Source of the DNA: Actinomycetes bacterium
Lineage (GTDB): Bacteria > Actinomycetota > Actinomycetes > Streptosporangiales > Streptosporangiaceae
Assembly: GCA_021792855.1 (NCBI GenBank)
Contig: JAJYTW010000010.1
Location: 1-44,569 of the forward strand
Length of the DNA stretch: 44,569 nt
Direction of reading: 5' to 3'
Made by a program: the position numbers and the translations under genes. How positions within the stretch are numbered: position 1 is the stretch's first letter; each line of letters opens with the position of its first letter. Below the pieces are notes generated by a model. The model was not told the DNA's origin, did no database searches, and was given only the letters and a program-made list of their open reading frames with translations. This document shows, one piece after another, positions 7,379 to 10,265 of the stretch.

Positions 7379-7453
7379 TCGGGACGCCGGGATTTGAACC
7401 CGGGCTCTCTGGTCCCCCAGACCAGCGCCTTAACCAAGCTGGGCCACGTCCCG
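7379..7453 (-). tRNA. tRNA-Pro (anticodon GGG)
   Basis: A full cloverleaf is visible on the minus strand. The 7 bp acceptor stem is CGGGACG/CGTCCCG with discriminator A. The anticodon stem CTGGT/ACCAG closes a 7-nt loop with U33 and anticodon GGG, and the T arm contains GGTTCAAATCC. The 3' CCA is not encoded. A TATTAT -10-like box on the minus strand at 7474-7479 lies at a suitable distance upstream. Confidence 0.97.
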
Positions 7454-7556
7454 TCGCCCTGTCGGACGCTCAGATAATAGCGCATTGTCCGGCACCGCCG
7501 CGGCCCGCGCCGCCGGGCGGGCGACGATCACGCTATGCTCGCCCCAACGCGCCGAC

Positions 7557-7812
7557 GGAGACAAGTAGCACCGGTCACCGCGAGCCAAGAGAGCCGCCGG
7601 AAGCTGAGAAGTCGGCCTCGCGCACCGGTCGCGAAGACACTCCCGAGCGCGGGGAGGAACGGCCACCGCCGCCAGCGGCCGGCCCGATGCCCCGCCGGCC
7701 TGCCCCCGTGACCGGGCACAACCGAGGCCGTCATCGACGGCGAAGGTGCGGTGGCACCGCGAGTCCCTTCTCGCCCGCACTCCCAAGGGCCGTGACTACC
7801 CAGGAGTGCGAC
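7557..7812 (+). promoter_or_regulatory. Translational T-box riboswitch, Asp-specific, controlling aspS
   Basis: The leader has all T-box elements. Stem I closes with GGAG (7557-7560) and CTCC (7640-7643). CGCGAG pairs with CTCGCG, and ACCGGT pairs with itself. The AAGTAG (7563-7568) and AGAGAG (7588-7593) motifs are present. The specifier position reads GAC (Asp) at 7636-7638, after GAA. A stem III-like hairpin lies at 7727-7741. In the T-box, A1 is 7746-7751/7775-7780, the bulge is UGGCACC at 7752-7758, and A2 is 7759-7763/7770-7774. The UGGC of the bulge would pair with GCCA, the uncharged end of a tRNA with discriminator G, as in tRNA-Asp. The 3' strand of A1 overlaps CGCACTCC (7776-7783), which can instead pair with GGAGTGCG (7803-7810) and hide the ribosome-binding site. 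Uncharged tRNA should therefore free translation. A -10-like TATGCT lies at 7534-7539. Confidence 0.85.
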
Positions 7813-9117
7813 ATGACTTCTGACCGGGTCCTGGCCAGCGAACTGAGCACGCGCGTCGGCCACGACGTCACCATCGCCGGATGGCTGCACCGCAAGCGGC
7901 AACTGAAGGCCGTTACCTTCCTGATCGTCAGGGACGCGACCGGCCTGGCTCAGGTCGTGCTCTCCGGCCCGGCCGCGCCGTCCGCCGCCGAACTGACCGA
8001 GGAGACTCCGCTGAGCGTGACCGGCACGGTCGCCGCGAGCGCGCGGGCGCCCGGCGGCGCGGAGATCGTCCAGCCGGTGATCACGGCGCTCAGCGAGCCG
8101 GCCGAGCCGCCGCCATTCGATCTGTACCGGCCGGTCGTCACGGCTTCGCTGCCGACCGTGCTCGACCACGCGCCGACCTCGCTGCGGCACCCGCGGCTCC
8201 GGGCCGGCTTCGCCATCTCGGCCGCGAGCGTGGCCGGCTTTCGCGCCGCGCTGGACGCCGCCGGGTTCACCGAGATCCATACCCCGAAGATCGTCGGGTC
8301 GGCGACCGAGTCCGGGGCGAACGTGTTCGGCCTGGACTACTTCGGCCGGCCCGCGTTCCTGGCCCAGTCGCCGCAGTTCTACAAGCAGGCGATGGTCGGC
8401 GTCTTCGAGCGGGTCTACGAGACCGGGCCGGTCTTCCGGGCCGAGCCGCACGACACCGCGCGGCATCTGGCCCAGTACGTCAGCCTGGACGCCGAACTTG
8501 GCTTCATCTCCGGCCAGCAGGACGTGATGGCCGTGCTCAGGCAGGCGCTGGCCGGGATGGTCGCCGCGGTCGCCCGCCGGGCCGGCCCCGAGGCCGACCT
8601 GCTCGGCGTCCGGCTGCCCGAGGTTCCCGCCGAGATCCCACAGATCCACTTCGCGCAGGCGCAGGACCTGATCGCGCGCGAGGCCGGGTGGGACCCGCGC
8701 GGCGAGCCCGACCTGTCCCCCGCCGACGAGCGCTTCCTCGGCGACTGGGCGCTGCGCGAGCACGGCAGCGAGTTCTGCTTCGTCACCGGCTACCCGATGG
8801 CCAAGCGGCCGTTCTACACCCAGCACGACCCCGGCCGGCCCGGCTACTCGGTCAGCTTCGACCTGCTCTTCCGCGGGCTGGAACTGGTCACCGGCGGCCA
8901 GCGCCTGCACCGTCACCGCGACTACCTGGCCGCCTTGGCCGCCCGCGGCGAGGACCCCGCGGACTACGCCAGCTACCTGGAGATGTTCCGGCACGGAATG
9001 CCGCCGCATGGCGGCTTCGCGATCGGCCTTGAGCGGTGGACCGCGCGGCTCACCGGCGCGCTCAACATCCGGGCGGTCACACTCTTCCCCAGGGACCTGC
9101 ACCGGCTGGCGCCGTAA
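7813..9117 (+). CDS. aspS: Aspartyl-tRNA synthetase, archaeal type (possibly non-discriminating Asp/Asn)
   Basis: A 434-residue class IIb synthetase that charges tRNA-Asp, and perhaps tRNA-Asn. It has the short archaeal/eukaryotic architecture, without the large insertion of bacterial AspRS (about 590 residues). The N-terminal OB fold (residues 1-105) contains GWLHRKRQLKAVTFLIVRD. The catalytic domain has TEIHTPKIVGSATESGANVF, DYFGRPAFLAQSPQFYKQ, motif 2 FRAEPHDTARH, and motif 3 GGFAIGLERWTARLTG near the C-terminus. The start is ATG with AGGAG at 7802-7806; the longer open frame to 7687 runs through the riboswitch. It is monocistronic, convergent with a lipoprotein gene. Whether a standard bacterial AspRS exists elsewhere cannot be seen. 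Tolerance for tRNA-Asn cannot be read off safely. Confidence 0.92.
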   Translation: MTSDRVLASELSTRVGHDVTIAGWLHRKRQLKAVTFLIVRDATGLAQVVLSGPAAPSAAELTEETPLSVTGTVAASARAPGGAEIVQPVITALSEPAEPPPFDLYRPVVTASLPTVLDHAPTSLRHPRLRAGFAISAASVAGFRAALDAAGFTEIHTPKIVGSATESGANVFGLDYFGRPAFLAQSPQFYKQAMVGVFERVYETGPVFRAEPHDTARHLAQYVSLDAELGFISGQQDVMAVLRQALAGMVAAVARRAGPEADLLGVRLPEVPAEIPQIHFAQAQDLIAREAGWDPRGEPDLSPADERFLGDWALREHGSEFCFVTGYPMAKRPFYTQHDPGRPGYSVSFDLLFRGLELVTGGQRLHRHRDYLAALAARGEDPADYASYLEMFRHGMPPHGGFAIGLERWTARLTGALNIRAVTLFPRDLHRLAP

Positions 9118-9131
9118 CCGGGACGGCGCGC

Positions 9132-10265
9132 TCAGACTCCGGTCGGGATGCCGACCGTCTGACGCCGCCGCCAGCCGCCGCCGGAAAGCTCCCAGACCGA
9201 TACCGTGCCGGTGCCGGGCACCAGTGCCGACACCGGGCTGCCGGGCACCACGGTCGCGTCCGCTCCCGGCAGCCTGCCGGGCAGGTAGCGGGCCGTTCGG
9301 GGGCCTATCAGGACCGCCCGGGAGTTCGCCAGCGCGACCCCCCATTGGCCACCCGGCCCGGCCGACGCGAACCGGGCGGCCGTGTGCCCGACGGCGATCG
9401 GCGGACCAGCCGTCCACCCGGACCCGCTGCCGGAGGTCGCTGCCAGCAGGACGGTGCCGGCCGGTCCGGCGACCGCGATCAGCGCCGCCGCGCCACCGTT
9501 GGTCGCCAGCAGGCGGAGCACGGTGACCCGCGCCGTGCGCAGCGCGGCGGGCAGCGCGATGTCGGCCAGCGCCCAGCCGGGGCCGACCCGGCGGAAGAGC
9601 CCCACCCGGCCCGGCCGGGCACAGTCCCCGGCGAGCAGCGGAACGCCGCCCGGCGCCGCCGCAGCGGTCAGCGAGCGCAGGCCGCAGGCACGCCCGGCCG
9701 GGCTGGCGGCCAGCGCTGCCTCGGTCACCAGGGGCCGCCACCGGGCACCGGACGGGCCGGACACCTCGGCCGCCCGCGCGGTCACCGCGATCAGCGCGCC
9801 GGCCGGCAGCGTGCTCAGCGCGTCCGGCCGGCCGGCCAGGCGCTCCGGCAGCAGACCCTGCGACCAGTGCGCGCCGCCATCGCCGGTCACCGCAAGCGGC
9901 GTGAAGGTGAGCAGGTCCGCGGGCACGAAGGCGACGGTCAGCGACCCGCCGGGCGGGCCGGCCACCACCAATCCGGCGTTGTCGGCGACACCGGGCGGCG
10001 TGGCCAGCCGCCAGGCCGCGCGGCCGGCCGGCCGGACCAGCAGTTGCCAGTAGGCGGTGGTCGTCCCGGCCGGCCCGGGTACCGGCAGGGTCGCCCAGGC
10101 CGCGCCCGATCCGCCCGCGGCCGCGGTCGCCAGCCCGATCGGCGGGGGCGCCGCGGCGGGGCCCCCCGGCCGGGCCGACTGCCCGGCCGAGCAGCCCGCC
10201 AGCGCCAGCCCGGCAGTCGCGGCGATGGCCGCCGCGGCGGCAGCGGCGGCTCGAGCCCGGCTCAT
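9132..10265 (-). CDS. Secreted lipoprotein of unknown function, probable beta-propeller
   Basis: A 377-residue protein with a lipoprotein signal: basic MSRAR, an Ala-rich hydrophobic core, and lipobox LALAGC with the lipidated Cys at 25. A Gly/Pro/Ala-rich linker follows. The body has spaced beta-strand-like blocks and one Asp-box-like element (TGDGGAHW, near residue 130), as in BNR-repeat propellers. No catalytic residues can be named. GGAGGG lies about 8 nt before ATG 10265. It is convergent with aspS, 14 bp apart, and separated from the reductase gene by about 90 bp. The extracytoplasmic location is well supported; the function is unknown. Confidence 0.75.
   Translation of the reverse strand: MSRARAAAAAAAAIAATAGLALAGCSAGQSARPGGPAAAPPPIGLATAAAGGSGAAWATLPVPGPAGTTTAYWQLLVRPAGRAAWRLATPPGVADNAGLVVAGPPGGSLTVAFVPADLLTFTPLAVTGDGGAHWSQGLLPERLAGRPDALSTLPAGALIAVTARAAEVSGPSGARWRPLVTEAALAASPAGRACGLRSLTAAAAPGGVPLLAGDCARPGRVGLFRRVGPGWALADIALPAALRTARVTVLRLLATNGGAAALIAVAGPAGTVLLAATSGSGSGWTAGPPIAVGHTAARFASAGPGGQWGVALANSRAVLIGPRTARYLPGRLPGADATVVPGSPVSALVPGTGTVSVWELSGGGWRRRQTVGIPTGV

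Follow-up and report, generated by a model that had tools for sequence, protein, structure and literature searches.

Translational T-box riboswitches of actinobacteria are known from leaders of ileS (Seliverstov 2005, PMC1262725), and the structure of the Nocardia farcinica ileS element is discussed in PMC10651847. A review notes that a few translational T-boxes are long, a truncated stem I being typical of them but not defining (PMC7583486), and actinobacteria were scanned with a class II model for TBDB (PMC7778990). Translational T-boxes for Asp or Ser are not described in the literature examined, which has ileS only (PMC1262725, PMC7583486, PMC10651847); TBDB may list them, and some of the Asp and Ser leaders reported below may already be predictions there. 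T-boxes on archaeal-type synthetases have been described before aspS2 of Clostridium acetobutylicum and its kin (Saad et al. 2012/2013, cited in PMC4206432) and before Bacillus cereus lysK, which encodes the class I enzyme LysRS1 (PMC2916919). PMC4206432 also notes an additional AspRS in an Amycolatopsis, in passages that do not mention a T-box for that gene.

Here we analysed a leader in a 44,569-nucleotide stretch of actinomycete DNA (the window), which the original prediction had read as an Asp-specific translational T-box. The elements named there (AGUA, AGAGAG, GAC, UGGCACC and the sequestrator) are all present in the sequence at the positions given for them. The leader and its gene were assigned the following features:

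7534..7539, plus strand: -10 box TATGCT (all 27 leaders tested have TAnnnT, at 22-25 bases upstream of GGAG in stem I)
7548..7649, plus strand: stem I, long form, with GAA-GAC specifier loop (RF00230 alignment; covariation in 25 leaders)
7564-7567, plus strand: AGUA motif of stem I (sequence)
7588-7593, plus strand: AGAGAG distal motif of stem I (sequence)
7636..7638, plus strand: specifier GAC (Asp), predicted partner anticodon GUC (invariant in 89 distinct long leaders)
7650..7694, plus strand: stem II (CGGGG/CCCCG) with AGGAA...AUG internal motif (direct reading; motif also in relatives)
7696..7718, plus strand: stem IIA/B pseudoknot region with CCGUGA (canonical CCGUUA) and helices CGG/CCG and UGCCC/GGGCA
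7745..7781, plus strand: antisequestrator (covariation)
7745-7751/7775-7781, plus strand: helix A1 (covariation)
7752-7758, plus strand: T-box bulge UGGCACC, the N of UGGN being C (sequence)
7759-7763/7770-7774, plus strand: helix A2 (covariation)
7765..7789, plus strand: helix CCCUU 7765-7769 / AAGGG 7785-7789, pairing the A2 apical loop with the A1 3' flank (covariation)
7776..7810, plus strand: Shine-Dalgarno (SD) sequestrator CGCACUCC 7776-7783 / GGAGUGCG 7803-7810 (perfect complementarity; GGAGUGCG contains the SD)
7802..7806, plus strand: Shine-Dalgarno AGGAG, six bases before the ATG at 7813
7813..9117, plus strand: aspS2, 434 aa, read as a single-gene transcription unit (NF003483, 530 bits)

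Because the conserved -10 box lies so close upstream, the transcript should start with the T-box, immediately ahead of stem I. A tRNA-Pro(GGG) gene lies directly upstream of the leader on the minus strand (window 7379-7453), and the ORF next to aspS2 (9132-10265) is on the opposite strand. No conserved partner gene was found around aspS2, whose neighbours are transporters, LplA, GltX and similar genes.

Rfam at its gathering threshold returned no T-box over the window, and its E-value mode then gave a significant match, as the original prediction had anticipated for the T-box covariance model: positions 7543-7781 aligned end to end with RF00230, from the first to the last model position (41.8 bits, E 4e-8). 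This score is below the gathering score of 93 bits, which is a curation threshold and not a biological feature. No T-box in 60 relatives, ileS leaders included, rose above that threshold, so the low score reflects the make-up of the model and not a weakness of the window copy. The match is the single one genome-wide (RF00230, E 1e-7). Folded over its full length, the leader had a minimum free energy that was only weakly unusual (z -1.66), and thermodynamics alone would therefore not have revealed the element.

The leader lies upstream of a synthetase gene (AspRS2). The specifier loop of its stem I places AGUA across from GAA and holds a triplet that agrees with the gene downstream, and a UGGN-ACC bulge separates A1 from A2. 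As in class II T-boxes, the sequestrator pairs with the SD and excludes A1, with which it shares 7776-7781, and no terminator with a U-run follows: there is no T run between the T-box and the ATG. These results agree with the translational platform and mutually exclusive folds originally proposed. The truncated stem I without distal tRNA-elbow motif that is typical of class II was not seen, the window stem I being long and carrying AGAGAG. We consider it very probable that the leader acts as a translational T-box for tRNA-Asp(GUC) through which a second AspRS (AspS2) is made as a spare when tRNA-Asp is uncharged.

The aspS2 product scored 530 bits against NF003483, an NCBIfam equivalog with a cut-off of 353, and 337 bits against TIGR00458, under the cut-off of 368. 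Its best solved relative is the non-discriminating AspRS2 of T. thermophilus (1n9w). At two positions that we take to separate non-discriminating (H/P) from discriminating (W/K) enzymes, AspS2 has H and P, the same as 1n9w, whereas the discriminating T. kodakarensis enzyme aligns with W and K. AspS2 is thus predicted to be an archaeal-type, non-discriminating AspRS. Since the window genome also encodes a full bacterial AspS (695 bits), the predicted T-box controls the second AspRS and not the housekeeping enzyme. GatB is likewise encoded, and no AsnRS over cut-off was found in the window genome. Separately, one locus in another genome (L175, G020:C4:673193-674479) scored 235 bits to AsnRS, under the cut-off, and has no T-box.

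A protein scan of named genomes yielded 62 loci of close relatives (L002-L062, L075), nearly all actinobacterial, and a T-box lay directly before the gene in 61 of them. A predicted T-box before aspS2 is common in actinobacteria and not the curiosity of one genome. The exception, L002, encodes the AspS2 nearest by protein (78% identity) and has no T-box upstream of 3585, which may reflect loss or an assembly fault. When 27 antisequestrator regions were aligned, A1 and A2 were paired in 97.8% of cells, and their covariation scored 0.28, compared with 0.127 for shuffled alignments and at most 0.06 for slid controls; none of 500 shuffles scored as high. The second A2 pair, for instance, is C-G in 19 leaders, G-C in seven and A-U in one. 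Stem I showed compensatory changes in 17 of 27 consensus pairs across 25 leaders, and the stem IIA/B helices also showed compensatory changes in relatives, weaker yet above their own controls.

The sequestrator was tested leader by leader, and its direct alignment was left out of the counts because it is out of register by one base in Micromonospora-type leaders. Complementarity to the SD was present in 25 of 27 leaders and varied together with A1, such that the SD side is altered to match where A1 reads GUGUG/CACAC in place of GUGCG/CGCAC. The window duplex (-16.3 kcal/mol) was reached in 13 of 5000 dinucleotide shuffles; of the 27 leaders, 18 have a sequestrator stronger than their shuffles (p<0.05), and it is weak in L033, L042 and L056. 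The alignment of orthologous leaders that had been suggested thus supports A1, A2, stem I and the SD sequestrator by covariation, and GAC and UGG[CU] are kept in relatives before the same gene. The putative switch logic is well supported by this comparison.

Covariation also revealed a helix that the original prediction does not name, between CCCUU and AAGGG, which was paired in 95.6% of cells with a score of 0.28 against 0.125, a value reached in 0 of 500 shuffles. The two strands change together (CCCC/GGGG, CCCG/CGGG), and the helix recurs in most held-out Asp leaders, being absent in L149 and L151. In ileS leaders no counterpart was seen at a constant position. The helix probably belongs to the OFF fold, since a 3-base linker would scarcely be long enough to connect the base of A1 with the apex of A2. 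Together with the sequestrator this helix would build an H-type pseudoknot (loop lengths 6, 1 and 13 bases) or, should A2 stay closed, a kissing complex of two hairpin loops.

Which tRNA is read depends on the specifier frame. In ileS T-boxes of the same group the loop reads GAA-N-AUC-A. The Asp loop, GAA-GAC-[A/C], is shorter by one base, so spacing alone leaves the frame ambiguous. The ileS spacing, found in the same genomes, would allow a GAA-G-ACA reading and hence sensing of tRNA-Thr (ACA/ACC, +1), and a -1 shift would give AGA for tRNA-Arg(UCU), which also has G73; to these shifted frames we give almost no weight. The T-box sequence, UGGC or UGGU in relatives, fits G73 of tRNA-Asp and misfits U73 of tRNA-Thr. 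In the window, UGGC fits the discriminator G73 of tRNA-Asp from the same genome, where among the tRNAs read only tRNA-Asp, Asn, Arg and Trp have G73 (Thr has U73 and Ile A73). In ultrashort leaders, described below, a U precedes GAC, and the -1 frame would read the stop codon UGA. Eleven sister T-boxes with UGGC (L184, L221, L223-L229, L233 and L234, the G264 family) carry UCC at the same position as GAC, before serS, and the specifier frame is therefore fixed: shifted frames would read AUC (Ile) or CCC/CCA (Pro) there instead of UCC (Ser), and the genes under control encode AspRS and SerRS. All four sister-leader proteins scanned passed the SerRS cut-off. The frames AGA (Arg) and ACN (Thr) were accordingly rejected on U73, the UGA stop, the UCC sisters and gene identity, and the predicted specifier is settled as GAC by its invariance, the discriminator, the ultrashort leaders and the UCC sisters. 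The Asp specificity of the original prediction holds on the same grounds.

In its proper frame the leader might still sense tRNA-Asn, AspS2 being the non-discriminating kind of enzyme that makes Asp-tRNA-Asn for GatCAB. AspS2 does have the H and P residues of 1n9w, and tRNA-Asn of the window genome also has G73. Moreover, of eight T-boxes inspected upstream of clostridial aspS2, seven have AAC (Asn) (L063, L064, L072, L073, L076, L078 and L079), with GAC in L077; these specifiers were read by eye at loci where Rfam at gathering gave no T-box. Clostridial aspS2 T-boxes act on transcription. Against this reading, GAC is present in all actinobacterial aspS2 leaders inspected, AAC was not found at their specifier, and the anticodon GUU could read GAC only through an unexpected G-U pair with its first base. 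Sensing of tRNA-Asn is thus very unlikely, and tRNA-Asp is the preferred ligand.

Specificity is held constant while stem I is not. Most orthologues have a long stem I, which is reduced in L056 and L151 (GGAG[CAGACA]CUCC in L151), and in Kineosporia, Longispora, the f28 genomes and G207 only a short hairpin is left, with GAC in its loop. This ultrashort hairpin mostly has a 4-bp stem and a 9-base loop, such as GAGG[CCUGACACC]CCUC, and a promoter is close upstream here too; the hairpins of Longispora (L058) and G207 (L157) were placed by eye, and their predicted folds differ. Mapped on the AspS2 tree, the ultrashort and the reduced label require two changes each, though a single ultrashort origin is possible given the starred branches.

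We then asked how the T-box relates to enzyme redundancy. Of 297 genomes drawn from the class, 27 encode AspS2; one of these is the window genome, and the 26 others were compared. Seventeen encode AspS2 together with bacterial AspS, and all 17 have the T-box, directly before AspS2 in 16; in the 17th, G047, it precedes a 5' fragment of a broken aspS2. At that locus (L177, G047:C895:1-5200) the T-box and a 289-codon 5' part of aspS2 lie at the contig start and a further AspRS2 part follows 3.5 kb downstream, so that aspS2 appears broken. The remaining nine genomes have AspS2 without bacterial AspS and no T-box (0/9), all from one family (f38), so the 26 genomes are not 26 independent events. A tenth f38 genome, G207, encodes bacterial AspS as well as AspS2, and the T-box is present there. 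Phylogenetically, AspS2 copies with a T-box group in a single clade (100/100), far outside which lie the f38 copies without one, three of them being included in the AspS2 tree. A model built from antisequestrators matched 20 genomes in the same draw, with two matches beyond the AspS2 count: the serS leader of G264 and an ultrashort Asp leader before bacterial aspS in G168. An ultrashort Asp T-box with GAC in the hairpin loop precedes bacterial-type aspS in both G168 and G687 (L185, L240), so the T-box is not confined to second enzymes.

The elements, their covariation, the specifier, the discriminator match and the second-enzyme status rest on sequence and comparison, from which we infer tRNA binding, the direction of the response and the spare function of the AspS2 circuit as follows. 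RNA from a promoter at about 7534 would present GAC in the stem I specifier loop. Uncharged tRNA-Asp would pair its anticodon with GAC and its free GCCA end with UGGC, holding A1 and A2 together so that the SD stays free and AspS2 is made. With charged tRNA-Asp, A1 would open, its 3' strand would pair with the SD and translation would stop, the OFF pairing probably being reinforced by the CCCUU/AAGGG helix. A gene turned on by uncharged tRNA is established T-box behaviour. AspS2 would then be added only when housekeeping AspS fails to keep tRNA-Asp charged, as when aspartate is scarce or AspRS is inhibited. That AspS2 is a spare induced by starvation or inhibitors is suggested by the redundancy with AspS, the B. 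cereus lysK precedent and the T-box-controlled SerRS of G264, which is the second of two SerRS genes there. Resistance to a synthetase inhibitor is a possible pressure behind such a spare, and second synthetases with a role in inhibitor resistance have been reviewed (PMC9437257).

AspS2 might instead serve mainly tRNA-dependent asparagine synthesis, its Asp T-box linking the supply of Asn-tRNA to Asp charging. The non-discriminating residues of AspS2 agree with this, as does the lack of an AsnRS over cut-off in a genome that has GatB, where Asp-tRNA-Asn must be made. However, most relatives lack both AspS2 and AsnRS, so bacterial AspS there must already serve tRNA-Asn, and the sister T-box controls a SerRS (the second in G264), an enzyme without a role in amidation. 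We judge a main role in asparagine synthesis unlikely, though less so than the alternative ligands. That the element is a degraded or non-functional remnant might be argued from its sub-gathering RF00230 score, but T-boxes of relatives, ileS included, score below the threshold too, every helix tested shows compensatory changes, and promoter, SD and specifier are intact, making this the least probable reading. With AspS2 as an inducible spare, a broader and more tentative proposal is that one actinobacterial T-box lineage drives spare synthetases that replace a blocked enzyme, through an OFF state in which a pseudoknot hides the SD, with the long stem I repeatedly reduced to an ultrashort hairpin at constant specificity. 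Its targets would be AspRS2 and, once the specifier had changed from Asp to Ser, a second SerRS as well, the blocker being for example a synthetase-targeting antibiotic of the habitat.

These results add Asp, with Ser, to the translational T-boxes, which the literature examined describes before ileS only. They tie the T-box to gene redundancy in the sampled genomes, where the T-box is present if AspS2 is a second enzyme and absent if AspS2 is the sole AspRS. Long, reduced and ultrashort forms of stem I at a constant specifier and gene make the origin and tRNA binding of ultrashort T-boxes testable, and the UCC/serS sisters offer a natural specificity change. The leader also points to Asp-tRNA shortage and AspRS inhibitors as conditions under which to seek the function of the spare enzyme.

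Compared with known systems, the Asp leader belongs to the same family as RF00230 and TBDB class II, with matches in relatives below the RF00230 gathering score. With the actinobacterial ileS T-box it shares the T-box bulge, A1/A2, the SD-hiding sequestrator and actinobacterial hosts. It differs in its specifier (GAC, or UCC in serS sisters, against AUC), its T-box sequence (UGGC against UGGU), its mostly long stem I with AGAGAG, the missing spacer base between GAA and specifier, the extra CCCUU/AAGGG helix and control of a second synthetase. The C. acetobutylicum-type system likewise places an orthologous archaeal-type AspRS under a T-box, but differs in its specifier, AAC in seven of the eight clostridial loci inspected, and in acting on transcription. 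B. cereus lysK shares a T-box on a second, archaeal-type synthetase beside a housekeeping enzyme of another type, but is Lys-specific and from a Firmicute, whereas the Asp leader is Asp-specific with a translational platform. New relative to these systems are the predicted erosion of stem I to an ultrashort hairpin whose loop holds GAC and the helix, supported by covariation, that would join the A2 loop to the 3' flank.
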